The position numbers and the translations under genes are program-made. Below, piece by piece: positions 16,713 to 37,168 of a stretch of DNA of 37,271 nucleotides. How positions within the stretch are numbered: the first letter of the stretch is position 1; each line of letters opens with the position of its first letter. Origin of the DNA: a bacterium (GTDB lineage Bacteria > Patescibacteriota > Saccharimonadia > Saccharimonadales > UBA4665); the NCBI GenBank assembly GCA_021800155.1, contig JAJYZG010000008.1, forward strand, positions 1 through 37,271, given 5' to 3'. The notes beneath the pieces are model-generated. The model was not told the origin of the DNA, did not search any database, and saw only the letters and a list, made by a program, of their open reading frames with translations.

Positions 16713-17741
16713 TTAGTGTCTGTGACGCAAAGCCTTAATGATTGCCTGTTTCCCCATTATATTTCGATAAATACTTGCTCCCAGCCCTCCGTATGTAGTT
16801 AAAGCAGAGACCACAATAGCTAATCCTGCTGCCAATGCAGCATATTTAATAATAGTTGTGGGTGCAATAGATTGACGGACAAAATTTGATTTCGCTCGCA
16901 TTGCTACAGTAGGACTTTTGCTAAGAGAGGCTTGATTGGGTAGTCTTTTATTGCCGGGTGTGGCTTGATTGTTACGCTTATTGCTCAGTTCGCTGGATGG
17001 ATTTATTTGTGTAATATCAATGCGCACATTGGGCTGGGCTATTGGTTCAGTTCCGAAATTAATACTGTCAATGACAGAAAAACTAATATCTGTTGATAAA
17101 TAACTTTCACCACTGCTGTCCGAACCTAAAGCATAAGCCGTATATCTTCCCGTGGACAACTGTAACCTTGATACTTCCATGCTCCAATAACCAGCATTAT
17201 TGCTGATTGTCTGATACTGTTGACCATTAGATAGGAACACAGTTACTGTGCTATTAGGATAAGTATAGCCGTCCAGTATACTGTTATTGCTAATGTTGAT
17301 CGTGGGGGGCATAAAAACACTAAGAGTTACTTGCTGCAATGGCTGAATACTCACACTAATTGTTGATAGTGCACTATGGATTCCCATACTGTCGACGTAG
17401 GAAAGATTAAGATAATTGATCCCAGCTGGCACCGCTTCTAATTCTATAATAAATAATCCCATTTTATTCACCGATACTGTGGTCATCGTACTACCGTTGT
17501 CATTTATAGTCACAAAGGATCCAGGGGGGGCCTTGCCCTTAATAAACAAAGCTGTGCCTGGAATTTGAAGAGACACGCCACTTCCGCTATCTGCATATGA
17601 GCGAGTTATAAATACTAATATCAAAATACAGGTCGTTAAAGTTGCGATAACCAGCCTAAAACAAATTCTACGATTAATCAGTTTGTACGTTCGCTGCTCA
17701 ATCGGGTAATTATTCTTTACCAAACAGTATTTTAATTGCAC
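16713..17741 (-). CDS. Secreted Ig-like repeat protein with C-terminal anchor
   Basis: A 342-residue surface protein that ends the five-gene surface operon. A basic stretch and hydrophobic helix (LVIATLTTCILILVFI then SYA) form a signal peptide at about 30-51. Two Ig-like beta domains follow: PGTALFIKGKAPPGSFVTIND and DGYTYPNSTVTVFLSNGQ show the P.S.V.V pattern of bacterial Big/Ig-like repeats. A polar Ser/Asn/Pro linker leads to a C-terminal membrane helix (YAALAAGLAIVVSALTTYG) and a short basic tail. The start is a GTG with AGGA eight bases upstream, giving a 32-base overlap with the preceding gene. A later start closer to the signal peptide is possible. Confidence 0.7.
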   Translation of the reverse strand: MQLKYCLVKNNYPIEQRTYKLINRRICFRLVIATLTTCILILVFITRSYADSGSGVSLQIPGTALFIKGKAPPGSFVTINDNGSTMTTVSVNKMGLFIIELEAVPAGINYLNLSYVDSMGIHSALSTISVSIQPLQQVTLSVFMPPTINISNNSILDGYTYPNSTVTVFLSNGQQYQTISNNAGYWSMEVSRLQLSTGRYTAYALGSDSSGESYLSTDISFSVIDSINFGTEPIAQPNVRIDITQINPSSELSNKRNNQATPGNKRLPNQASLSKSPTVAMRAKSNFVRQSIAPTTIIKYAALAAGLAIVVSALTTYGGLGASIYRNIMGKQAIIKALRHRH

Positions 17742-18690
17742 GTTTTATCCTGACGCGTCCAAGCCACACTATGCTGCACAGCACTATCACTATAGCGAGT
17801 ACAATAGCAATTAATGACCATGGTATTACTACAAATGTCGTCGTGGCGGTTAGAATTTTATTACTAAGGCCGTACAGAGCGGTCAGGGTGGCCCTATACT
17901 GTCCAAAAAGTATTCCATGTTTCCAGTAAGTAGTTAAACTTCTTTCGGCGCCAGGTAGTATATACTCACTGGCGAGAGGAATCTGGGCTACTTGTGCTCC
18001 AAACATATTTCTAATATTTATGTAGCCAATCGGCTTCACTTGGACGTTGCCTATGTTAGAAACCAGGGCAGTAAGACTTAGTCTATTACTCGGTAGTTTG
18101 TTCCCGGTTTCAACGTTAAAATTTTTAACAAAAATATTTTCATCGGCCTTACCGGCAATCCGTAATAGTATTAAATCTCCTATCCGCTGAGATACGGACA
18201 CACTTGAACCATTACCTAATTTATTGGGAGAGGTTGTAAAAACGATCGATCCAAATTTTCCGCTCGGTTCGGCGTTTTGGGGAACATTAATTGTAAAGTT
18301 AAATATTTGTGTACCGTAGCCAGTTATGGTGGCATTTTCGGGGTTTACTCTTATCCACGATATTAGAGAATATTCATTTGCCTGACTAGTAATATTAACT
18401 TGTCCTTCTGTGCCTAATGGAACGAAATTTTCTAAACTGACAGAAACGTGCTGTACTATTGGAGTGGTGTTTTCTACCCTAATGCTTTCACTCAGCGTAT
18501 CACCTGGATTAGCACTCAAATAAAATGTTGGTGGCGAGACCGCTAGTGAAGTTACTGTCCCAGAAACGTGAGATGTAGCCGACACCGGTACGTACATAAG
18601 CCCAGAATATGCAATTAATAACAATAACGACGCGAGAGCTATGTTTAAGCGATTCTGCAGGCTTTTAGCAATAACTGCCAGCATCTTCAC
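17710..18690 (-). CDS. WxL-interacting-protein-like surface protein (DUF916/DUF3324-like), copy 2
   Basis: A 326-residue exported protein anchored by a C-terminal helix. The signal peptide (ALASLLLLIAYSGLMYVPVSA) ends near residue 39. The first beta domain opens with LAVSPPTFYLSANPGDTLS and contains NFTINVPQNAEPSGKFGSIV, the pattern of the peptidoglycan-binding domain of WxL-interacting proteins (DUF916). A second beta domain (LTALVSNIGNVQVKPIG to GILFGQYRATLTALYG) corresponds to the DUF3324 part. A membrane helix at about 288-312 and a basic tail (RIKRAIKILFGKE) finish it. It is clearly paralogous to the protein at 19848-20780: both share the NVP/NIP-NAE motif, the G..Y helix-proximal strand and the PW(S/D)LI start of the membrane helix. 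Confidence 0.75.
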   Translation of the reverse strand: MKMLAVIAKSLQNRLNIALASLLLLIAYSGLMYVPVSATSHVSGTVTSLAVSPPTFYLSANPGDTLSESIRVENTTPIVQHVSVSLENFVPLGTEGQVNITSQANEYSLISWIRVNPENATITGYGTQIFNFTINVPQNAEPSGKFGSIVFTTSPNKLGNGSSVSVSQRIGDLILLRIAGKADENIFVKNFNVETGNKLPSNRLSLTALVSNIGNVQVKPIGYINIRNMFGAQVAQIPLASEYILPGAERSLTTYWKHGILFGQYRATLTALYGLSNKILTATTTFVVIPWSLIAIVLAIVIVLCSIVWLGRVRIKRAIKILFGKE

Positions 18691-18714
18691 GCGCTTCTCC
18701 TATTTAATTAAGTT

Positions 18715-19776
18715 CTAATATACAGGAGTAAGTGTATAAATAACAGTAGTAGAGTAAGACCCTGGGGGAGTAGTTGCAGACAAGCCGATCTGATATCCTA
18801 TATCTGTCGTGACGCTACTTGCGGCCGAAGAGCTGTTTGCTATAGTTGCAGGAGTGGTGCTTAATCCGGCCCATAAATTAGAGGCAAATTGAGCTTCTCC
18901 GGTAGTGGTATAGCCAAAGCCTTCTGTGCCCGCAGCCGTAAAACTTGTCGGAGAGCTGTTGGTGCCACTAACATTGGTAAAGTTATGTGTTCCATTACTG
19001 AGTGGTCCAGTATAATCAAGTGTTAAACCATACCCATTGCCGGAATTCGTAGAAACGGTTAACGCTTGCGCCCCAATACCATTGGTGCTAATTGTTGGCG
19101 TAGTGCCGAATGGAATCGTAGTTGAAGTCGTTGCGAAATTTGTGGTGGCACCATTAATGTTTGTGCCGCTAGGCAATGCAGCTACACTGAAACTTAGTAG
19201 GGGGTTTACGGTCACGCTGACTGACTGGCCGGCATTATAAATAAAACCTACGGTTGCATTGTCCACTGCACCAGAACAAGATGAACTAGTATACGTAGTA
19301 ACGGCTAGAAAGTATGGAGTTCCGGCGGTAGACCCGTTAGTAATATTCTGTAAAATAATGTTACCAGACGAAGCTGGTGTTGCACCTGTTGAATCGGTCA
19401 ACTGAACCGTTCCGTTAGTTGAGGCGGTTACGGTCCAACTAGAGGAAGTTATTAGAGTTGAAGAGACACTAAGTGTGGCTGCAGTAGAACTAAATCCTGT
19501 CGGTACACTTCCGCTCATATTAGACGCGCTATTAAACTGTAAGCTAATACACTGAATAGAAGTTGACGTTAGACCGGAGGCCTGAAATGTATAATTGCTG
19601 GTTACTGAGGGCTGAGCATTACTTAGAGTGACTGAAGCGCTAGTAAGAGTAGCGGCTACTGCCGATCCGGGAGCCATAAACAATATTACTAGTGACAACA
19701 GTATAGTTAACTCCCGATAACGCTTATATAATCTAACCTTCATTTTTGTAAACTCCCCTGATGTTATGTTTTTCAT
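18715..19776 (-). CDS. Secreted WxL-like surface protein, short
   Basis: A 353-residue exported, Thr/Ser/Asn-rich beta protein. The signal peptide (LTILLSLVILFMAPGSAVA) is near residues 22-41. The N-terminal half has a beta domain with one spaced Cys pair (around SIQCIS and SSSCSG). The C-terminal half begins SVTVNPLLSFSVAALPSG, continues QALTVSTNSGNGYGLTLDY and GTEGFGYTTTGE, and ends PPGSYSTTVIYTLTPVY. The last strand matches the end of WxL domains, except Tyr replaces Trp (YTL). It lacks an LPXTG signal and a membrane anchor, so it is probably held non-covalently. It lies directly before a WxL-interacting-like gene. Confidence 0.7.
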   Translation of the reverse strand: MKNITSGEFTKMKVRLYKRYRELTILLSLVILFMAPGSAVAATLTSASVTLSNAQPSVTSNYTFQASGLTSTSIQCISLQFNSASNMSGSVPTGFSSTAATLSVSSTLITSSSWTVTASTNGTVQLTDSTGATPASSGNIILQNITNGSTAGTPYFLAVTTYTSSSCSGAVDNATVGFIYNAGQSVSVTVNPLLSFSVAALPSGTNINGATTNFATTSTTIPFGTTPTISTNGIGAQALTVSTNSGNGYGLTLDYTGPLSNGTHNFTNVSGTNSSPTSFTAAGTEGFGYTTTGEAQFASNLWAGLSTTPATIANSSSAASSVTTDIGYQIGLSATTPPGSYSTTVIYTLTPVY

Positions 19777-19847
19777 GCTTCGACCATTTAACCATGGATC
19801 TCACGAATCAATCAAATTATTTTTTAGACCATAAACCATAAAGATAG

Positions 19848-20780
19848 TTATGGGTTTTTAAATAGCAGAGCTTTGAATGCTCTCCATAGCCTCTTCCTGA
19901 AAACCTTATAGAGAGCTCCTAATACTGCTAGCAGAATGCCAGCTTCTATGATTAAATCCCACGGTGTAACACTAAAATTGATAGATGATTCTAGTATTAC
20001 GTTATTGCTGCCATAAATTAATTTTCCTTTAAGTTGATACGAACCCAATAAGGGGTGTTTAGACCAAACACGAGTAAATGTGTAACCCTTATTGGGAAAT
20101 ATTACTTCACGGCCTAGCTGAAAACTTTTAACAGGTTTTCGGTTCTTATAGACAACTAGGCTACCGTGAGGCAAAAGGTACACATTGCCATTATTGACAA
20201 GTCTTAGACTTAATGTAACTGGACCTTCCCAGGGATCTATGCTGGCTTTTATAGCTCCAATATATGCCGATTGCTTAATGTCACCCGTTACGATAATTGT
20301 AGCTAATACTCCAACTCTCAAAATTATCGGAGATTTATTGCTCTGGAGTGAATTCACTGGTACTAGAGGCGTAAAATAAATAGTTGCATAGTGAGCGCCA
20401 GCTTCAGCATTTTTAGGAATATTGACCGTAATATTTTCTGTTTGACTTTGGTGAGGAAGAATTAACAAGTCTGGCTGTTGAAAGACAAACCACTGAGTTG
20501 CACCGTTATCGATGTAGCCGTTATTATCAAATGGTGCTGTCGAAGCATAAAGTGGCATAGGTTGGTTAGACAGGTTAGTAATAGTAACGTTAAATATGGC
20601 GCTTTTCTCTGGGCTAATAACTTGATCAACGATGGATGGGGTCACCGATATCATATTTGTGTTGTTAGTTACTAATTTAGCGTTTGTAAGAGCGTCTACA
20701 CCCGATGGTAAAGCCATCAAGAGACAGCAAAATAGCATAGATAGCGATATAAGATCAGATATATGACGAAAGTAAGTCAT
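19848..20780 (-). CDS. WxL-interacting-protein-like surface protein (DUF916/DUF3324-like), copy 1
   Basis: A 310-residue exported, membrane-anchored protein. The signal peptide (LISLSMLFCCLLMALPSGVDA) ends near residue 31. Domain one: ISVTPSIVDQVISPEKSAIF, ITNLSNQPMPLYASTAPF, then ENITVNIPKNAEAGAHYATI, the DUF916-type pattern. Domain two: LSLRLVNNGNVYLLPHGSLV to HPLLGSYQLKGKLIYG, then a membrane helix at about 278-297 (IIEAGILLAVLGALYKVF) and a basic tail. In Firmicutes such proteins bind peptidoglycan and hold WxL proteins at the surface; the same job for the adjacent secreted partners is inferred. It begins four bases after the stop of the large secreted protein, so they are co-translated. 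Confidence 0.75.
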   Translation of the reverse strand: MTYFRHISDLISLSMLFCCLLMALPSGVDALTNAKLVTNNTNMISVTPSIVDQVISPEKSAIFNVTITNLSNQPMPLYASTAPFDNNGYIDNGATQWFVFQQPDLLILPHQSQTENITVNIPKNAEAGAHYATIYFTPLVPVNSLQSNKSPIILRVGVLATIIVTGDIKQSAYIGAIKASIDPWEGPVTLSLRLVNNGNVYLLPHGSLVVYKNRKPVKSFQLGREVIFPNKGYTFTRVWSKHPLLGSYQLKGKLIYGSNNVILESSINFSVTPWDLIIEAGILLAVLGALYKVFRKRLWRAFKALLFKNP

Positions 20781-20784
20781 GCCT

Positions 20785-23085
20785 CTAATAGTTGGGTGTT
20801 AAGGAATAAACTATTACCCCGCTATATGTAGTTGCACTTTGGACTGGGGTAACAGTAACTCTATTGGTTATGGTAAAAGTGTCGCTAGCAGGAGAACCAA
20901 CGACCCCAGAAGCCTGGTTTGCTATAATGTCGCCAGGGGCAGTGGTTGAATACGGCGCAAAGCAACCAGGAGCTACGTATGCGGATCCCCCTGGGCATGG
21001 ATTAGACTGAAATATATTAGACCCGCCAATCGAGGTATCACTGGAAGTATAACCGAAACCAGTATCTCCTGATGTCCACGTATTGGGGGTCGCATATGTA
21101 CCACCGTTAAAGGCATTAATTGTATAGCTTTTGTTAGATAGAGGCTGAGCAAGATACGCCCGGATTATAAAACCATTATAGGCGTTAGATGAAGCGCTAA
21201 TGGTTGTAGTTTCTGAATCGGTCCAAGGTATAGGGTTGTTAGGGCCCAAATTAGCAAAGGTTAGCGCTGATGGTGTAATACTGAAACTAAGTGTGGGAGC
21301 GACCATCTGACCGCTGCTAGAGACACCATTACTTACATTACCGGCGGCATCGTATGCTTCAACGTTAAAATAATAAGTCTGGCCAGTATGCAGACTTAAT
21401 CCTGTAGCAGTTATTGCCGTTCCAGTAGTAGAGGTCCAGCCTAAGATATTAGTAGAGCCTGCAGTAGTCCCAATGGAGTAGCTATAGCTAACAATACCGT
21501 CCGTTGTATCAGAAAAGCCCGACCAATTAGCCGATAGCTGTGACAATGAGCCATTGTTAAATATTTCTTCTACTCCGGTAGCGCTACCATCAAAGACACT
21601 TCCTCCCGTAGGGGGGGACGTATCGTAACCAAAATTAGGAGAAGTGCCGAACTGTACCCAAGCCGAATAATTACCTGCCGCATCCTCGGTTCTAGCTTGC
21701 CAGTGGTACTGTATCCCAGATGTTAAGGCGCTGTAGCTATCGCTTATAGTTACTGCTGTGCCACTGTAGGCGACTCCGCTGCCACAACTGGTGTTGACAT
21801 TAGTAAACGGTGTACTGATTGGTTCTACTTCTATGCATAGTTTTAGGGTGTCAGTATAGTTGCCACTTGATGCCTTAGCACTAAAATTAATTGGCGAGCT
21901 ATTGGTCCAGCTACCATTGCTTAAGTTTTGGGTGGTGGACTGAGTCAATGAAGTAGGAGCTGTAGGCGGCTGATCAACTATCTGCAGCGTTGGAATGTAG
22001 GAATAAGTGCTTAAAAGTCCGCCACTGTTTGTAACTATCCGAAAGCAATAATATCCCGGTGTTGCACTGGTATCATTAAGAGCAATGTCCCATTCCCCGT
22101 CTTCACCTGAAGGAATAGATGACTGGATGTTATTGAAATATGTATTTGACTGCATGTACTGCTCAGGAACAATTGTGTTTGAACCATCAGTCGGATCAGA
22201 AGAGAGTGCAGTTATATTCTGACCATCAGTTAATGAAGAATTAGAATAAAAACTGATCGGTGTAGTTGATGTAACGTTGGCGTAAGTTACTCCAGTAAAC
22301 GATGTGCTACAAGCTGAGCTTGAGCCATTAAAAGCATATTGCAAGTCAAATGCTTGTCCATCCAGAGGATCATTTGCACCGGCAACATTAACTAGAGTGC
22401 GTAATCGAAATGGAGTACCGGGTACCGGTGCCTGAGCAACAGTATTTTGGGATGCCAATGGAGTCAATGCGCTACTGACCGAATTGGTGTTTTGGTACCA
22501 TTCATAGGAGGACTCTGAAAACAATGGCTGGCTGTATGAGACCGTAATACTTATGTAGTCTACATAAGCTGAGTAAGTCTTATTTGGCGTAGAATTGTTT
22601 ATGGCAGAGATGTTTACGGAAAAATTACTGTTGTCGATAGCCGCTGGCGTCCAGTTAGTTCCCCACAAATTAGTGCTACCTCCGTATGTAACATATGAAT
22701 CCGTTGACGGCCAACTGGTTGTAGTAGCAAGGTTAGCACTATAGCTGGAGGTTACTGGATTATATGCCTCTACTTCGTAATCTGAAATGTTGGAATTGCT
22801 GGCATACTTTTCAATATTAGCCTGAATTCCATTGATAGTAGCATTGGATGGTATAGTAAATCCAAATCCTGACACCGTAAGAAAATCACTATATGCACCC
22901 TTGCCTAGAGAAACACTGGCATAAACACCGTCTGAAGCTAGGGCATTACTGGGCGATGACCATGTACCGTTAGATCCACTTATAGTCGTGTCACTGGCGA
23001 TAGTTGGCGAGTATGGGCCATTGCTCGCAGCCGAAAGTGTTCCTTGGAAATCAGCTCCTACAATGAGCAAAACAAACATCAGCAT
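20785..23085 (-). CDS. Large secreted WxL-like surface protein
   Basis: A 766-residue (from the ATG) exported beta-rich protein, first in the operon. Modules in order: a beta domain with VSGFGFTIPSNATINGIQAN, an Ig-like domain, fibronectin-III-like repeats (PPTAPTSLTQSTTQNLSN; YHWQARTEDAAGNYSAWVQF; TYYFNVEAYDAAGNVSNG), and a C-terminal WxL-like domain from about residue 590 (LSFSITPSALTFANLGPNNP) with TGFGYTSSD and the end TTYSGVIVYSLTPNY, where YSL stands for WxL. A Cys pair (NPCPGG, APGCFA) lies in that domain. The ATG gives a hydrophobic start without a basic n-region. The frame stays open upstream for about 20 codons, with basic residues (RIKNDRRSKISAFFL) behind a GAGGG at about 23150, suggesting a true start there at a rare codon. 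Confidence 0.7.
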   Translation of the reverse strand: MLMFVLLIVGADFQGTLSAASNGPYSPTIASDTTISGSNGTWSSPSNALASDGVYASVSLGKGAYSDFLTVSGFGFTIPSNATINGIQANIEKYASNSNISDYEVEAYNPVTSSYSANLATTTSWPSTDSYVTYGGSTNLWGTNWTPAAIDNSNFSVNISAINNSTPNKTYSAYVDYISITVSYSQPLFSESSYEWYQNTNSVSSALTPLASQNTVAQAPVPGTPFRLRTLVNVAGANDPLDGQAFDLQYAFNGSSSACSTSFTGVTYANVTSTTPISFYSNSSLTDGQNITALSSDPTDGSNTIVPEQYMQSNTYFNNIQSSIPSGEDGEWDIALNDTSATPGYYCFRIVTNSGGLLSTYSYIPTLQIVDQPPTAPTSLTQSTTQNLSNGSWTNSSPINFSAKASSGNYTDTLKLCIEVEPISTPFTNVNTSCGSGVAYSGTAVTISDSYSALTSGIQYHWQARTEDAAGNYSAWVQFGTSPNFGYDTSPPTGGSVFDGSATGVEEIFNNGSLSQLSANWSGFSDTTDGIVSYSYSIGTTAGSTNILGWTSTTGTAITATGLSLHTGQTYYFNVEAYDAAGNVSNGVSSSGQMVAPTLSFSITPSALTFANLGPNNPIPWTDSETTTISASSNAYNGFIIRAYLAQPLSNKSYTINAFNGGTYATPNTWTSGDTGFGYTSSDTSIGGSNIFQSNPCPGGSAYVAPGCFAPYSTTAPGDIIANQASGVVGSPASDTFTITNRVTVTPVQSATTYSGVIVYSLTPNY

Positions 23086-23429: not shown

Positions 23430-24409
23430 ATGAAGCACCTAACGGCTGCACAACGGGGCAATATTGAAACATTGCACCAAGAAAAGTAAACAAACAGATT
23501 GCTAGTCGACTTGGAAAAAGCTCGTCTACTATTGTTCAAGAAATCAAGCAAGGGCTAGATGGTAACGGCATTTACCATGTTTAGATAGCTCAAGTAGCCT
23601 ACGGTACAAATAGAATGCGCCGAAGACAAATACCTAAGTTAGATCACCCGTTTAATTACCGTGTGCAAGGTTATGGATAGTTGACTGTCTACAAAAAGGC
23701 TGGGATCCATCTATAATTGCATGTAGGTTAAGAACAGAAGGATTTAGCTTAGTTGTTTGTGTCGAAACTATCTATCACTGGATATATATACTAGTGTCCA
23801 TGCCATTGTATAGAAGTTGTACCAATACTTACGCTACGGGGTAAAAAGAAGCGCACCAAACATACAGGTCAATCTGCTCAAACATAGCAAGACACCTAAA
23901 CAGAGTGTCTATCCTTGAACGGCCAGCTGTTGTCAATGAAAAAAAAGCGTGTTGGCGATTGGAAGTGAGATAGTGTGGTCTATACCCACAAACAAGTTAT
24001 TAACGCCGTGAGTGAGAGAGTTAGTAGTCTAGCGACTTTTGCCACGATAACACGCAGAACAGCCGTTCAAATAGCTGAAGCTGTAATAAAAAAGCTAAGT
24101 CAATATTCTGCTTACACTATTATCTTTGACAATGGCAGCGAGTTTACGGCATACGATTTGATGACCGAAGCACTAGGCGTTGTGGTGTACTTTGCAGATC
24201 CTCACTCAAGCTGGCAGCGTAGTTCTAACGAGAACAATAACCGTCAGTTGCGAGCCTACTTACCAAAAAGTAGTGACATACGGAATCTTACCCAAAAAGA
24301 ACTAGATAACATTTCCCGGGAGTTAAACAACGAGCCCCGGAGAAGGTTTAACTGGCATATCCCACAGGGAGTGTACGATTGGGTTTGCAGATCCCTGACA
24401 AACAGCTAG
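23430..24409 (+). pseudogene. IS30 family transposase, decayed
   Basis: An ATG at 23430 opens MKHLTAAQRGNIETLHQEK, the IS30 N-terminus, then a stop. In another frame follow QIASRLGKSSSTIVQEIKQG, the HTH. At about 23950 RVGDWK, a TGA, then DSVVYTHKQ corresponds to the RxGDWEGD first catalytic Asp. The rest is intact in one frame from 23975: YTIIFDNGSEFTAYD (second Asp), DPHSSWQRSSNENNNRQLR (catalytic Glu in NEN), RAYLPKSSDIRNLTQKEL and LNNEPRRRFNW. The catalytic residues survive but frameshifts and stops in the first half make the gene dead. Confidence 0.85.
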
Positions 24410-26697: not shown

Positions 26698-27349
26698 CTA
26701 GCTTATTTTTAATACACCGATTACTTTGCCAATTATGTTTGTTAATGGAATTGGGCCAAGTATCCTTGAGTCCAGCGCTATCATGCGATTGTCGCCCAGT
26801 ATATATACACTATTTGAGGGAACTACTAAATTTACACTGCCTAATGTTCTTGCTCCTGAAGGTTCATAGCTGGTGCTAGGATCGAAACCGTTCGGATGAC
26901 TGCGATTGTATACAGTTAGTGCGCCATTTTGAATAACAACCTGATCACCGCCTAATGCAATTACTCTTGATATAATATCTTGGCTTTGACCTTGGAAAGA
27001 AATTTCTATTAACACCATGTCATTTATTGACACCGACGTGCTCAGTAGTTTGTTGTTTGCCGCATAAAAAGTTGCAACTAATACATTCTGCCCATTATTA
27101 AGAGTGGGGGACATTGCTGCTCCGTTTAGTACGTAAGATTTCTCTAGAAGGGTAGTCGAATAAGCTAGAGTTGCTATATATGTAACGTAAACAATTACAG
27201 CTATACCTAAAATGCTCAGAAATATATAAAATAACTTTTTGAACTTACGCGGTTTTGTTACTACTGAATTTGAAATAGTCGATGGGTCGATAGGGCTAGA
27301 GTATGGCGTTTGAATGCTTGAAGTTTGATCTATTTTTTTGGTTGTCCAT
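26698..27349 (-). CDS. Signal peptidase I with apparent frameshift and missing Lys
   Basis: An S26 signal peptidase. The uninterrupted domain starts at about 27331: a polar N-terminus, basic KPRKFKK, one membrane helix (LFYIFLSILGIAVIVYVTYI), then GAAMSPTLNNG with the catalytic Ser, box D IISRVIALGGDQV and box E GDNRMIALDSR. In box D the catalytic Lys of KR(V/I) is replaced by Ser, leaving SR. The only ATG upstream (27349, reading MDNQK) is in a different frame and joins the rest only if one A is lost from an A7 run at 27332-27338. Alternatives are a rare start codon (CTG or ATA) in the intact frame, or an inactive gene. Internal ATG 27114 would cut just before the catalytic Ser and lose the anchor. 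Confidence 0.75.
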
Positions 27350-29630: not shown

Positions 29631-30890
29631 TTAAACTAATCTTCTTTTGGGAGAATTCCAACTTATGTTGTTTTTTGAAATACTATTGCTAAGTGACGGT
29701 AACCTTACCAAAGACTTTAACAATGCTATATACTCAACGAAAGATAACGCGTAGAGCGCCAAATATACTGGTGGCGCATAATAGGTCAAAATAAGTTTTT
29801 GCTTGATTGATACACTCGTACTTGACCAGAGATTTATTAAAATGTATGAAAGAATAACCCCAAACGACATAATAAATATGCCGAAACTTTGATATTCATA
29901 AATTATGTAGAGTAAATAAAGAATTATAAATGGTTCCAGCAAAAATAATCCCTCTTGAACTAATGCATAAGGTAGCATTATTAAAGTTAACTGTTTGCTA
30001 TGATCAGGATTTGAGTTGAAAAAAGTTCGTTTATTTTTTAAAAACGTTTGCATTCTCCCATACTTCCAGCGAAAACGTTGACTTATAAGTGACTTTACGT
30101 CTTGAACGCTCTCAGTATAAGCAATAGCATTGGCAGCATAAGCCAACTTATTCTGTCGGCTGCCTCGAGAAACAAACTTCATGCTCAAATCAATGTCTTC
30201 TGTCATTGTATTGGTGTCATAGTAGCCAACCTGGAGAAGTGATTTAGTTCTAAACATTGAGCCAATTCCGCCAATAATATACTCAATGGAATATGCATTT
30301 TGAGCGCGCTTCATGCTATATGAAATGATGTATTCAAATCTTTGGACAAGATTCAAAAGAGTATTTTGTTCATTTATGACTACATTGGCGGCTACTGCGA
30401 CAACATCTTTTTCCCTAAAATACTGAATTTCGTTATAAATTGCATATTTATCAAGCGTAGAATCCGCATCCAAACACATTACATACGGTGATTTAACATA
30501 TCTTTTAAGGGCGTAATTTAAACTTGCAGCTTTACCTTTATTTTTTTGGTCAATTAGTCTAATGCGGTCCCTGTTTGTTTTGGTTATGTAAGAACGTACA
30601 ACGTCTCTAGTATTATCGGTAGATCCGTCATTAATAATGATTACTTTTAGTCGACATTTTGGGTATTTACTACTGAGGATTGAATCTAGGCATTGGATTA
30701 TATTATGTTGTTCGTTTCTAGCGGGAACCAACACGGTTACATTGGGGGTGAACCTACTCCGATTTTTATTTGTCACTTTTTTAATTTTAATGTTGTACAG
30801 ATCTGAACCAACTAAATATATGCCCATTCTTACAAGATTAACCATACAAATTACTATGATAATATCGGTAATTATTTCTGTAGTACTCAT
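29631..30890 (-). CDS. Membrane family 2 glycosyltransferase (PgaC/hyaluronan-synthase-like)
   Basis: A 419-residue processive-type GT2. An N-terminal helix (ITDIIIVICMVNLVRMGIYL) is followed by the GT-A domain with VTVLVPARNEQHNI, INDGSTDNTRDV (88-96), DAD at 141-143, TED at 230-232 and QRFRW at 271-275. The QxxRW motif marks processive synthases of the PgaC/chitin/hyaluronan/cellulose class. Three or four C-terminal helices form the channel. It probably makes a surface poly-N-acetylhexosamine or similar glycan; the sugar cannot be told. The ATG overlaps the end of the sortase gene (ATGA), so both are in one operon. Confidence 0.88.
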   Translation of the reverse strand: MSTTEIITDIIIVICMVNLVRMGIYLVGSDLYNIKIKKVTNKNRSRFTPNVTVLVPARNEQHNIIQCLDSILSSKYPKCRLKVIIINDGSTDNTRDVVRSYITKTNRDRIRLIDQKNKGKAASLNYALKRYVKSPYVMCLDADSTLDKYAIYNEIQYFREKDVVAVAANVVINEQNTLLNLVQRFEYIISYSMKRAQNAYSIEYIIGGIGSMFRTKSLLQVGYYDTNTMTEDIDLSMKFVSRGSRQNKLAYAANAIAYTESVQDVKSLISQRFRWKYGRMQTFLKNKRTFFNSNPDHSKQLTLIMLPYALVQEGLFLLEPFIILYLLYIIYEYQSFGIFIMSFGVILSYILINLWSSTSVSIKQKLILTYYAPPVYLALYALSFVEYIALLKSLVRLPSLSNSISKNNISWNSPKRRLV

Positions 30891-31486
30891 TTATAGCCAA
30901 CCAAATTAAAAATTACGACTTTTCTTGACGTGGCATACCAGTTATCACAAGTTATAAGTACTAAGATTGGCTTCTTGCTGTGAGTAAATAATATGGAAGT
31001 GTTAGTTGGTTTAACTACGGTATTAGACTTATAAGAGTAAACGAATACATGCTTATTATTGGTGTATACATACGCGACGTCCGACCTATTGGCGTTTAAT
31101 AAATTACCGAAAATGGAACCATATATATGGCCATAAATTATAGTTTCGCCCGTTTTATTGTTCGGCAGAATACTGCTTGAATCATATATTGCGTCATAAT
31201 TTGAAAGGGTCCATGCCAAACTATGGCTGTTATACGTTCCTTTTATTATATTGTTGTCAATGCTAAGCTGAGGAATTACTATACGTATCGGTTCACCGGA
31301 GATAGTATTACGAGCCGTATTCTTAGTGTCTGTTATAGTTTTCGATATTTTGGACGTTGTATTTTGCAAATATACATATTGCTCATGATGCCGCCAAAAT
31401 GCCACAAACATCACAAAAAATATTAATGCATATAGAGGCTGTACACGCAGAATCAGAGGTACACTACGCGAAGAAGTTTTACTCAT
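30887..31486 (-). CDS. Sortase
   Basis: A 199-residue transpeptidase. A membrane anchor at about 17-31 (LYALIFFVMFVAFW) is followed by a polar stalk and a sortase barrel. Active site: His120 in IIYGHIYGSIFGNL, Cys180 in VLITCDNW and Arg188 in ATSRKVVIF. The barrel (RIVIPQLSIDNNIIKGT; AWTLSNYDAIYDSS) is compact and the protein ends right after the Arg strand, like class D/E-type sortases. It cuts LPXTG-like signals and joins them to cell-wall material; the LPFTG protein just upstream is the obvious partner. No clear Shine-Dalgarno; it lies 32 bases after that gene. Confidence 0.9.
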   Translation of the reverse strand: MSKTSSRSVPLILRVQPLYALIFFVMFVAFWRHHEQYVYLQNTTSKISKTITDTKNTARNTISGEPIRIVIPQLSIDNNIIKGTYNSHSLAWTLSNYDAIYDSSSILPNNKTGETIIYGHIYGSIFGNLLNANRSDVAYVYTNNKHVFVYSYKSNTVVKPTNTSILFTHSKKPILVLITCDNWYATSRKVVIFNLVGYK

Positions 31487-33041: not shown

Positions 33042-33244
33042 ATGACTCCACGAACTACTATCGGACAGATTTTTAAGAATGCTAGAAAAAGTCAGGACTG
33101 AACTCACACTGAAGTTGCACAAAAAGCTCATATAACTATGAATATTTACTCTCATATCGAACGAAACGTTCAAGAACCCTCTTTAATACCGTAATGAAGA
33201 TTGCCACGGCTCTTGATATTGATCCTTCAAAACCAACAGATTAG
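33042..33244 (+). pseudogene. Xre-type HTH regulator, decayed
   Basis: An ATG with an AAGGA ribosome binding site opens TIGQIFKNARKSQD, a TGA where Trp would fit, then THTEVAQKAHITMNIYSHIE and, after a frameshift, NTVMKIATALDIDPSKP. This is the complete Xre/Cro helix-turn-helix (R..R...GxT..E.A..A.......S.IE.....PS....M.IA.AL.I.P). One stop and one frameshift disable it. It could once have regulated the neighbouring restriction or helicase genes. Confidence 0.75.
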
Positions 33245-33368
33245 ATGTCAATAACTGTATACTTCTAGCGAAAGGTTCGCGTGACTTACGAGACAACTGA
33301 AGCCTTTCTTTAAAGTTCAAAAGCCATTATGCTTGCTATTAGTAAATCGTAGCGTTAATCTGATAATA

Positions 33369-34151
33369 ATGAGCGAGTTTGTTCAAGGTTATGTCAAGAC
33401 TGCTGATCAGATTCTAGAAACTTTATCTGGCCTAGAACAATGTCTAGGTGAACTTGATAGACCAGTATTGGATCCCGAAAGCTTGAGTCTTGCTGAAGCG
33501 ATTGTCCTAGCTAGTCTTAGACGTGCTATTACTGAACGAATCAAAACCCATTTCGGGCCCTACATCGTTGGACTTTCTGCTGATACAACTTCTGAAGTTG
33601 AGCAGCTCAAGCAGCCAGATTTAGGCAATGGTTCAAAACCACCACGAAATCCTACTGATATGCCTAATACTTACTATAGCTCCAACGGCAAGACTTCGCT
33701 TGTGACGAGCCGAGAGCCACGACCCAGAGAAGAAGACGGAAGATCACTGTATGAAATGCTTTCTGAAAAGATTATCCCAGTTACTTCAGAAGCTACAATT
33801 GGATCATCGCCTAAAATTTCAATTATTGCCGATGACCTGGTAAGAGTACATGGTGAACAACCGCTTGAATATAGACTTCGACCCGAAGGAATATTGGCAT
33901 TAAACATGATCTTAGATTCAAGGGATGGTGTTAGTCTTACTGACATGGTTATAAGACTCGGTCTTGATTCTCGTACACCTCCTGAACAACGCGAGAGGTT
34001 AAAAAGCGGTATGACAGCTGTAAGAACTATGCTAGGCCCATATTTGAAGAGAGATGGCCAGACTTCTAATACTTCATACCAATTACCTCCAGAAGTAGTA
34101 ATAGCCGATCTACGTGTTCCGCAAACCTCAGATGGTGTAAAAAAAAACTGA
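33369..34151 (+). CDS. Winged-helix-like protein, probable N-terminal part of helicase
   Basis: A 260-residue frame. The N-terminal 70 residues are helical (TADQILETLSGLEQCLGELD; SLAEAIVLASLRRAITERIK), followed by a disordered Pro/Ser/Arg linker (about 85-135) and a C-terminal region that looks like a winged helix: EYRLRPEGILALNMILDS, VSLTDMVIRLGLDSRTP and KSGMTAVRTMLGPYLKRDG. The frame ends GVKKN and TGA at an A9 run, where the -1 frame leads without a stop into the helicase. The helicase frame has no ATG, GTG or TTG before its Walker A. The ATG at 33369 has no clear Shine-Dalgarno; a TTG at 33333 is an alternative. Confidence 0.7.
   Translation: MSEFVQGYVKTADQILETLSGLEQCLGELDRPVLDPESLSLAEAIVLASLRRAITERIKTHFGPYIVGLSADTTSEVEQLKQPDLGNGSKPPRNPTDMPNTYYSSNGKTSLVTSREPRPREEDGRSLYEMLSEKIIPVTSEATIGSSPKISIIADDLVRVHGEQPLEYRLRPEGILALNMILDSRDGVSLTDMVIRLGLDSRTPPEQRERLKSGMTAVRTMLGPYLKRDGQTSNTSYQLPPEVVIADLRVPQTSDGVKKN
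34139..34151 (+). promoter_or_regulatory. A9 slippery run with stop: candidate -1 frameshift site
   Basis: The zero frame reads GTA AAA AAA AAC TGA, which contains the slippery heptamer A AAA AAC with the stop codon right after it. A one-base slip back gives AAA AAA AAA CTG ATT GAC, entering the helicase frame. Joined, 33369-36373 becomes exactly 1002 codons. Transcript slippage on the A9 run would have the same effect. Confidence 0.6.
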
Positions 34152-36373
34152 TTGACCCTGTCGAGCTCACTGATCCTCTTAGAACAGAATTAGAGCAATT
34201 AGGGCTAAGGCGAACTCAGCTCCCAATTTTTGAAACTCTTCGGCAGTATTTTAGAGGACGTGAGCGGAGTCAAGTTAGGGGTCAGGTTATTCTGCCTCCA
34301 GGCAGCGGTAAAACTGTTCTATTTGCAGAGCTTATAAAACAGCACCCGGATCTAAAAACTCTTATTTTAGTACCCACAAAACAACTTCTTGTGCAAACCC
34401 ATGACGCCTTAAGGACTAGAGGCTTCAAAGGAACAATTGATTATGCTAGAACCTACAAAGAAGATAAAGGGGAATCCCAGGTAATGTTGTCCACCTATCA
34501 AGGGTTTGTTATGCGATATAAGAATGGCGGACTAGCCATGAGGCACTATTCTGTTAATCCTGGTCAACGCCAGTTAGTTATACTTGACGAAGCACACCAC
34601 GCTATGGCTGAAGGAGCACAACAGGTATTACGAGCAGATTATCAAAATTCAGCGTGGCTTGGTTTTACTGCTACTGCAGACTATAACGAGAAAAGACGTC
34701 TTGTCTCTTTACTGCCAGATGTTCTAGCAGAGTTGTCGGACGCTTATGCTGCGTCAGAAGAATTAACAGCGCCCTTTCTTTCATTTATTCTCGATCTCGA
34801 TGTAGACATGTCCAGTGTGCCTATAGTTAACAAAGAGTATGAAGCTAGGTCGGTTAACCGCGTTATGAACAACCCGGCAGTAAACGAAGCAATTGCTCGC
34901 TTTTACACTGAATACTTCCCTGGACATAGAGCTATATTTAATCACTCCACTGTTGATCATGCAGAAGATATGGCGACTATGCTGAGGGCCATTGGTGTAG
35001 AGAGCCGTGCTATACACGGCCAGCTAAATGGCAATGAACGAACCGCCATACTGGAAGCATTGAAATATGGTGATTTACAGGCATTGACGCAAGCCAAGAT
35101 TATTGGCGAGGGTTATGATGATGCTTCAATATCTTTAGCGGTTAACGTCAGCCCTACATTATCTCCACTAAAGGAAAAACAACGTAGTGGTAGAGCAATG
35201 AGAATAGATCCAAACAATTCAGATAAAGTGGCATTTGTTGTTGATTGTTTAGGAAGTCACTATCGAATGGAGCCGGCAACGTATAGTTCGTCTGTCACTG
35301 GCGGATCGGTCATGGGGGGCTGGGATGTCGCTTCTCACGCTCAACATGCCGCTCGTGCAGACTTGTTCGATAGATTAGGGATAACCATCTTTGACAATAG
35401 TTTCTGGGCAGTTCCTAGAGTAGGTAGATTAGCAGTCTCAACACTGGGTCATGAAGAGCTATCAGCTGTATCTGATCTAGCACCCCTATATGATGGGGGT
35501 AGATCGAAAGCTAGACCATTAACAAAAGTCATAGACTTTGAAGCTGCTCAAATAAAACGCTCAGAACGTGGTGCAAGGCGTGAAAGTCGTCAACCTAAAA
35601 CTACAGAAGAGCCAACTGAAGGGCGATACTCCTCGTCTGATCTAAAAGTTCCTTCACTGCCACAAGGTGGTTCTTTTAGACTAAGAGACGATGTTAGCGT
35701 ACTAGACTACAATGAGACGATATTTAAGCCAAATCCTGCCTCAGAAGAGGAAGAACGTATTTTGAGCTGGTTTCTGAATGGTGAAGGTGAAATAGCATTC
35801 AGCAATGGAAGAATGCGTATGGTAAAACGCTTGATGGCAGACTTGGCTGGTTCAGAATACTTAGAAGACCCAGATGTTGTTGAGCGGTTCAGAACTGTTC
35901 AACAAAGACTGATGGCTGGTTCTAGACATATAGAGTCTAGGATTCAGATACCTGAATCATTAACACAAGATCGTCCTAGTTGGTACGGTCGAGCTGCCTG
36001 TCTAGGTTTGGCTGGCAAGCAGCACATCTTTTTCCCAAACAGGGGTGAGTCTACTCGACCGGCAAGAGAAGTCTGTAACAGCTGTTTCGTTGAGGACATA
36101 TGTCTATTCACCAACCTTAATAATAAATTTGGTATATGGGGTGGCATGAGCGAGCGTGGTAGACGCCGTGTCCGACAAATGCTTAAGAGCACTGGAGTTG
36201 AAGACGACTTTATAGGTAGAGAAATATTGCATCAGCGGGGAGTTATATATGATGAAACCCAACAGTCTCAGCTACGATCTCTTATATCCGCGTTAAGGAT
36301 AGCTGCTCAAGATAGTGAAGATGAAGAAGGCGAAGTCATCGAAGAGGAGTTAGTATTGAGCACAGTCGATTAG
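34142..36373 (+). CDS. Superfamily II helicase with C-terminal WhiB domain
   Basis: About 740 residues. Helicase motifs: Walker A PPGSGKT (34295-34315), DEAH in VILDEAHHAM (34586), GFTATADY (motif III), and QAKIIGEGYDDASISLAVN then QRSGRAMRID (motifs V and VI). After about 300 residues of linker comes a WhiB-type [4Fe-4S] domain: a first Cys in GRAACLG (35999), then VCNSCFVEDIC (36074-36103, the CxxCx5C motif), and FGIWGGMSERGRRRVRQML, the G(V/I)WGG turn and basic DNA-binding tail. All four Cys are present. A dsDNA or RNA remodeller controlled by redox or nitric oxide is plausible but inferred. The frame lacks a normal start codon, so it is probably translated by frameshift from the ORF at 33369. 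Confidence 0.85.
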   Translation, partial: KKLIDPVELTDPLRTELEQLGLRRTQLPIFETLRQYFRGRERSQVRGQVILPPGSGKTVLFAELIKQHPDLKTLILVPTKQLLVQTHDALRTRGFKGTIDYARTYKEDKGESQVMLSTYQGFVMRYKNGGLAMRHYSVNPGQRQLVILDEAHHAMAEGAQQVLRADYQNSAWLGFTATADYNEKRRLVSLLPDVLAELSDAYAASEELTAPFLSFILDLDVDMSSVPIVNKEYEARSVNRVMNNPAVNEAIARFYTEYFPGHRAIFNHSTVDHAEDMATMLRAIGVESRAIHGQLNGNERTAILEALKYGDLQALTQAKIIGEGYDDASISLAVNVSPTLSPLKEKQRSGRAMRIDPNNSDKVAFVVDCLGSHYRMEPATYSSSVTGGSVMGGWDVASHAQHAARADLFDRLGITIFDNSFWAVPRVGRLAVSTLGHEELSAVSDLAPLYDGGRSKARPLTKVIDFEAAQIKRSERGARRESRQPKTTEEPTEGRYSSSDLKVPSLPQGGSFRLRDDVSVLDYNETIFKPNPASEEEERILSWFLNGEGEIAFSNGRMRMVKRLMADLAGSEYLEDPDVVERFRTVQQRLMAGSRHIESRIQIPESLTQDRPSWYGRAACLGLAGKQHIFFPNRGESTRPAREVCNSCFVEDICLFTNLNNKFGIWGGMSERGRRRVRQMLKSTGVEDDFIGREILHQRGVIYDETQQSQLRSLISALRIAAQDSEDEEGEVIEEELVLSTVD

Positions 36374-36420: not shown

Positions 36421-36861
36421 TTAAACCGTACGGATGTGAGTCCATAGGTGCTGCTTTGTACCACGTATATTGACACGAGCGGAAGTACAAAGACTGGCAA
36501 CATATGTAACACCGTCTTTTCTGGCTCGCATATTCAGAGGCCCCGTGCAGGCTCTAGAATTAGCCGCTATTTTCTCTCGCTTAGTTTCGATTTCATTATC
36601 TATCTTTTCCATAGTTTCACCTAGAGATTTACGAATTCCTACTCTAGCTTCTTCAACGTGGTCTTCAGGGACAACAGATTCAATAAATCTATCGAACTGT
36701 TCACCTTCTTCACCGACTAAATGACCACCAAAGTGCTCGGCAGCATATTTAGCAATCATCATCTGACCCAACTCTGACGTTAATTCACATTGTACTCCAC
36801 AGTTCCGGCACTTTTCGGGCACCTCTGTATCCAACTCATTTAAGAAATTAAAAACTTCCAT
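36421..36861 (-). CDS. Small Cys-containing protein of unknown function
   Basis: A 146-residue soluble protein, unrecognised. An N-terminal CRNCGVQC cluster (residues 18-25) and two later Cys (in ANSRACTGPLNMR and VASLCTSARV) could bind zinc or an Fe-S cluster. The middle is a long acidic helical region (EEGEQFDRFIESVVPEDHVE; ETMEKIDNEIETKREKIA). It is convergent with the helicase gene, 47 bases apart. TATTAT lies four bases before the ATG and there is no Shine-Dalgarno, suggesting a leaderless transcript. Confidence 0.6.
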   Translation of the reverse strand: MEVFNFLNELDTEVPEKCRNCGVQCELTSELGQMMIAKYAAEHFGGHLVGEEGEQFDRFIESVVPEDHVEEARVGIRKSLGETMEKIDNEIETKREKIAANSRACTGPLNMRARKDGVTYVASLCTSARVNIRGTKQHLWTHIRTV

Positions 36862-36958: not shown

Positions 36959-37168
36959 ATGAAGATGGAGCAGTACACCATAGATAATTTACATCAGAAG
37001 TTTCCTAATGATGATGCCTGCTTAGATTACATATTTAACCAACAATATGGGTCTCTTACTGCTTGTCCTAAGTGTGGAGTAGTTAACCCTAGATATTACC
37101 GTGTTAAGTCACGTAAGTGCTATGAGTGTAATGACTGTGGTTATCAACTAAGTCCACTAGCTAATTGA
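36959..37168 (+). pseudogene. IS1595 family transposase, N-terminal zinc-ribbon fragment
   Basis: Seventy codons give NLHQKFPNDDACLDYIFNQQ, then ACPKCGVVNPRYYRV and YECNDCGYQLSPLAN before a TGA. F..KFP...AC.DYIF......CPKCG......V..R..YEC..CGYQ.S.LA is the N-terminal zinc ribbon of IS1595-type transposases. The next conserved part (a TIF...T.L..WF motif) is absent, so the gene is cut or frameshifted. GGGGTGTATAC at about 36941 may be part of its terminal repeat. The window ends 103 bases later. Confidence 0.75.

Follow-up and report, generated by a model that had tools for sequence, protein, structure and literature searches.

Is a gene pair that is split by a frame break a casualty of decay, or does it encode two parts of one protein that are joined by slippage? 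This question is raised by a locus in a Saccharibacterium (TM7), a member of a group of ultra-small bacteria that live on Actinobacteria. The window (the whole 37,271-nt stretch of DNA that was analysed) forms contig C4 in a genome of 1.11 Mb and 68 contigs. A single copy of the 16S target of probe TM7-905 occurs in this genome, and the target is also found in five of the twelve relatives tested, on which basis the group is assigned to Saccharibacteria. Within it, an upstream reading frame (ORF1) ends directly after a run of nine adenines (A9) and a long helicase frame continues in the -1 frame. The original prediction was that a programmed -1 shift joins the two frames. We consider it probable that programmed slippage at A9 unites the ORF1 and helicase-WhiB frames as one gene. 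The fusion proposal gains from distant relatives that have the same layout at T TTT TTA, three of them at one locus, but parts of it did not hold, as the winged helix assigned to ORF1 is unproven, the heptamer is a weak one in E. coli, and the WhiB domain had been missed.

The Junction Between ORF1 and the Helicase Frame

The features of the gene pair are collected in Table 1. The 3' end of ORF1 reads GTA AAA AAA AAC TGA in the zero frame, and the sequence thereby agrees with the A9 run, in-phase A AAA AAC and adjoining stop that had been described. ORF1 and the -1 open frame overlap by 82 nt. The earliest ATG, GTG or TTG in the -1 frame is the GTG at 34391, which is codon index 107 of the open frame and residue 84 of the frame read from 34142. 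This codon lies 3' of Walker A, in keeping with the claim that the helicase frame lacks a start codon through that motif. Counted from 34142, the Pfam ResIII match opens at residue 22 (~nt 34205). No ATG, GTG or TTG is met until 62 codons later, and the first start thus falls inside the helicase domain. As had been anticipated, a -1 shift gives a clean product of 260 + 741 = 1001 residues, with stops absent from both halves, and the predicted junction peptide is ...GVKK[N/K]LIDPVELTDPLR.

Table 1. Features of the ORF1-helicase-WhiB gene pair (window positions)
Feature	Position	Strand	Description or basis
ORF1	33369..34151	+	260 aa in zero frame; begins with ATG, ends with TGA immediately 3' of the A-run
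A9 run	34139..34147	+	candidate slippage site, RNA polymerase and/or ribosome
Second heptamer, A AAA AAA	34139-34145	+	sequence
In-phase heptamer, A AAA AAC	34142..34148	+	sequence
Zero-frame TGA stop	34149..34151	+	directly 3' of heptamer
-1 open frame, 767 aa	34070..36373	+	no start codon before 34391; SF2 helicase and WhiB if read from 34142
Helicase N-terminal (ResIII/DEAD) domain	34205..34678	+	Pfam PF04851, 1.3e-19
Walker A, PPGSGKT	34295-34315	+	within ResIII/DEAD domain
DEAH	34586-34597	+	within ResIII/DEAD domain
Helicase_C domain	34910..35206	+	Pfam PF00271, 2.1e-14; includes motif VI QRSGRAMR
Conserved ~60-aa segment before WhiB domain, FLNG...LAGSEYLEDPDVVERFRTVQQ	35759..35944	+	common to G234, G016 and G417
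WhiB domain	35981..36169	+	Pfam PF02467, E 3.7e-12; four cysteines, GIWGG turn, basic tail; alignments

Bacterial programmed -1 ribosomal frameshifting is recognized by two features, both of which are present here: the -1 overlap contains an in-phase X XXY YYZ heptamer, and the downstream frame has no start of its own. Programmed transcriptional slippage is recognized by an A or T homopolymer, about nine nucleotides or longer, where the frames meet, and A9 is such a run. Normal decoding would halt at the TGA and give a 260-aa short protein, and realignment by -1 on A9 would give the 1001-aa ORF1-helicase-WhiB protein. By the polymerase route, RNA polymerase would add one A and produce an A10 mRNA, while by the ribosome route, the ribosome would slip on A AAA AAA or A AAA AAC. 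The latter had been called a classic slippery heptamer. It is in phase and the stop adjoins it, but A AAA AAC is of the eukaryote type and is reported to be much less shifty in E. coli than A AAA AAG (PMC5009743), and RNA polymerase slippage is therefore at least as likely as ribosomal slippage.

A stem-loop or upstream Shine-Dalgarno stimulator, which is usual but not universal in bacterial programmed -1 frameshifting, had been put forward as a further sign; at the window site neither a Shine-Dalgarno-like element (p 0.23) nor a stem (p 0.21) is conspicuous. Polymerase slippage is slightly favoured over ribosomal slippage at this site, because A9 matches known transcript-slippage sites in length (it is sufficient in Thermus dnaX; PMC1088944) and no helper was detected.

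Domains of the Predicted Fusion Protein

The assignment of the downstream protein as a helicase is borne out by the Pfam ResIII and Helicase_C matches, but the C-terminal WhiB domain had escaped notice. The four conserved cysteines and the GxWGG turn, found both by Pfam and in alignments, place this domain in the WhiB-like family. Members of the family carry a [4Fe-4S] cluster and bind sigma factors. The winged helix that had been assigned to ORF1 was not confirmed: ORF1 matched no Pfam family, its score against a profile of wHTH-like segments (4.2 bits) was not above that of shuffles, and an AlphaFold (AF2) model built from the single sequence was unusable (pLDDT 36).

The helicase part resembles phage and bacterial SF2 ResIII/DEAD-box helicases in its Walker A, DEAH and motif VI, with 21-36% identity over the aligned parts. 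It differs from them in the WhiB fusion, which is common only to the window gene and a gene of genome G417. Such fusions are rare, as the survey of the order described below found only the G417 gene (contig C51, 36% identity to the window gene) besides that of the window. The G417 gene is cut by the contig end just beyond the Walker A region, and the part needed to judge the junction is absent. ORF1 and the N-terminal helicase part were not found together in G417 or in four other genomes, and none of the phage records covers 80% of the helicase-WhiB query with the WhiB tail included.

Two other features of the window are recorded here. A convergent 146-aa ORF at 36421-36861 (-) has several cysteines (CRNC...ACTG...LCTS) and no Pfam match, and it is a possible partner of the WhiB protein. 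Additionally, a group of secreted Ig-like/surface proteins is encoded on the minus strand, together with a sortase and an ORF that resembles a signal peptidase (16713-23085, 26698-27114 and 30887-31486).

Relatives with the Same Frame Break

WhiB domains are common in Saccharibacteria, being present in 103 of 393 genomes of the order. The genes often stand in tandem, and some have long variable N-terminal parts (G056:C3 61380-62875, G420:C128 and G064:C3). About 100 genomes of the order supplied 112 distinct WhiB ORFs, which we surveyed for an upstream ORF of at least 80 codons that overlaps in the -1-shift frame and for an in-phase X XXY YYZ heptamer inside the overlap. Five qualified: the window gene, L033/L280 (G234), L075/L277 (G300), L076/L279 (G191) and L056 (G155). 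The other 107 have no in-phase heptamer in a -1 overlap. The heptamer is A AAA AAC in the window and T TTT TTA (T6A) in the other four. The window gene, L033, L075 and L076 have the latest first start codons among the WhiB frames (indices 107, 54, 48 and 47), and L056 (index 27) stands behind two loci with short flanks (29 and 28). In L075, the first start codon falls inside the WhiB domain; an intact separate WhiB protein is therefore impossible from a normal start, and a fusion is needed there too.

In the four T6A relatives, the zero frame reads GAT or GGT followed by TTT TTA, with a stop 5-11 codons downstream, and the residues at the slip site are D/G-F-L-A/V in the zero frame and F-F-S in the -1 frame. 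The 189,483 codons of the set contain 29 in-phase copies of TTTTTTA, or roughly one in 6,500, and the probability of finding it by chance in an overlap of ~15 codons is therefore ~0.002 per locus. In L033 and L075, T6A is preceded at a distance of exactly 10 nt by GGAGG, and in L076 a GAGGGGG tract is found close to it; these Shine-Dalgarno-like elements have p values of 0.002-0.005 each against 1500 random coding positions. L056 has no such element upstream of T6A. In the T6A relatives, the same join would be made by a ribosomal -1 slip on T TTT TTA, with Shine-Dalgarno-like elements lying upstream.

Three of these genes (L033, L076 and L056) sit between gltX and a DUF3048-like gene, the latter named by its sequence motifs, in families f34, f1 and f26 (intervals L280, L279 and L278+L187), and this common placement indicates an orthologous position. 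The same interval holds a 599-aa ORF without WhiB in G040 (L328) and a decayed relative of the T6A-WhiB gene in G151 (L361). In a gltX-anchored survey of 84 genomes, the gene was missing from most, and several long ORFs at the place were unrelated. In another genome, of the same genus (G014:C42), the WhiB-family gene L079 contains an in-frame TAA, placed after its upstream part and ahead of the conserved segment that precedes WhiB. This TAA may reflect decay or readthrough; a stop at this position indicates that such genes do decay.

Further examples were sought in two ways. When 92 genomes of the family were scanned at the DNA level for the T6A cassette, 36 of them gave a total of 49 matches. 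Among the 30 loci fetched, only L076 leads to WhiB, and another match is the L075 site already known. A near-match in G441 was dropped since it reads on into an ApbE-like protein, and the remaining matches examined look like chance. IMG/VR scans with ORF1, the helicase, the G417 gene, a helicase alignment and the G234 WhiB part as queries revealed no further frameshifted WhiB genes.

The comparison with homologues that had been proposed for the join thus came out in its favour, as the layout of ORF1, -1 shift and WhiB with an in-phase T TTT TTA recurs in four other Saccharibacteria genes. The frame change is kept in four genes and three families on a heptamer that differs from that of the window. 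Since the corresponding join of these distant relatives carries a ribosomal slip site of the classic kind, the broken frame in the window is probably programmed and not damage.

Kinship with the T6A Relatives

Judged by sequence similarity, G234 appears to hold the closest T6A relative of the window gene, with homology that is firm only at the C-terminus and weak at the N-terminus. Its downstream frame matches that of the window over the WhiB domain, about 70 residues before it and 35 after it (E 3e-22). The N-terminal ~90 aa of the two ORF1 sequences match above shuffles, with an uncorrected p of 0.001-0.002 from about fifteen comparisons. The frame change lies between the matching N- and C-terminal ends in both proteins. 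The case for a shared design, with the helicase added in the window gene, appears good but not conclusive. The ORF1 sequences of the relatives have diverged beyond detection, except for L056/L075.

Homopolymer Avoidance and Alternative Explanations

A9 is the only run of at least nine in the window, where about 1.3 would be expected. A clade coding set of 368 unique ORFs (159,020 codons) was compared with an expectation obtained by shuffling synonymous codons. A runs of at least nine were observed 3 times against 18.1 expected; two of the three are the window A9 counted in two overlapping ORFs, and one is elsewhere. A runs of at least ten were observed 0 times against 4.4 expected. More broadly, A8-A10 and T8-T9 runs are strongly avoided in the coding sequence of these ORFs, which suggests that such runs slip in this group; A9 is also on record as a run length that many bacteria avoid (PMC1088944, PMC5009743). 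The depletion of A9 fits what would be expected if A9 slips. That A9 arose by coincidence beside an indel elsewhere in the 82-nt overlap was rejected, as A9 is too rare in coding sequence.

Several genes around the pair have decayed, which makes damage locally plausible. Just upstream, at 33042-33245 (+), is a decayed HTH_3 regulator that is disrupted by an in-frame TGA and by a break in the frame; if the stop is taken as X, it matches HTH_3 at 3e-6. Transposase fragments, consisting of an IS1595 zinc ribbon and an rve integrase core that is truncated, are found at 36959-37168 (+) and 23975-24409 (+). The gene may accordingly be, or recently have been, a single A10 frame that became A9 by loss of one base, through mutation or assembly error, so that the helicase half is dead or misread. 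The decayed neighbours, the broken relatives in G014 and G151, and the nature of homopolymer runs as indel sites speak for this explanation. However, it requires A10 in a working gene, and as A10 is rarer still than A9 in the clade codons, where A8-A9 are themselves depleted, an origin by a one-base indel would demand an even less likely run. There is also no other lesion across the 1001 codons, and the -1 layout recurs in four homologous genes on a short T6 run, where indels are not typically concentrated. We therefore regard single-base loss from A10 as unlikely.

Phase variation, in which the length of A9 would change in the DNA between cells and toggle the long protein, is more doubtful still. 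The run is long enough for replication slippage and is placed exactly at the junction, but the T6 of the relatives is not a hypermutable tract. Production of two proteins without a frameshift, with the helicase started at a rare codon (ATT 34151 or CTG 34148) through termination-reinitiation, is very improbable, for although TGATT puts an ATT in the helicase frame that overlaps the stop as in TGATG couplings, ATT and CTG starts are rare, no Shine-Dalgarno sequence lies ahead of them, and the relatives have slippery heptamers rather than coupled starts.

Programmed slippage at A9 thus remains the preferred explanation, and it has to be weighed against the weakness of the heptamer in E. coli, the absence of a close homologue with A9 among the sequences searched, and the weak homology of ORF1. 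We infer that slippage occurs at this site, at some level, and that the two forms differ in role, with a short ORF1 form and a long helicase/Fe-S effector form presumably made in a set ratio.

Comparison with Known Systems and Significance

The closest parallel is dnaX, in which an A-run junction yields two products from one gene, at A9 in Thermus thermophilus and at A AAA AAG with an upstream Shine-Dalgarno sequence in E. coli. The dnaX homologues reach the same end by polymerase slippage in Thermus and by ribosomal slippage in E. coli (PMC1088944, PMC5009743). A similar switch may have taken place among the homologues described here, and an upstream Shine-Dalgarno-like element is present in three of the four T6A relatives. 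Unlike dnaX, the slipped product of the window gene would be the long one, the protein family is another, and no stimulator was detected at the window site. As in Shigella mxiE, the two overlapping frames would yield their longer product only by slippage (PMC1088944), but mxiE uses a U-run and the window an A-run, the proteins are unrelated, and the mechanism in the window is a prediction. The WhiB domain resembles the WhiB-like (Wbl) regulators of Actinobacteria in its PF02467 match, four cysteines and GxWGG, and differs in being the C-terminal domain of a 1001-aa helicase fusion of a Saccharibacterium that would be reached via a frame change. A literature search found no paper tying WhiB, or Patescibacteria, to programmed frameshifting.

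Tentatively, and with slightly more doubt than confidence, we propose that fast-evolving regulators of Saccharibacteria have kept a frame-slip joint across families, set between the N-terminal part and the WhiB end, in which a ribosomal slip at T TTT TTA, usually with a Shine-Dalgarno-like element ~10 nt upstream, was replaced by A9 slippage in the helicase form, as in dnaX. If true, this may be a further case beside dnaX of homologues that swap polymerase and ribosomal slippage. Ordinary gene callers would split or drop the helicase-WhiB gene, and a WhiB-type protein of Saccharibacteria would be dosed by recoding.
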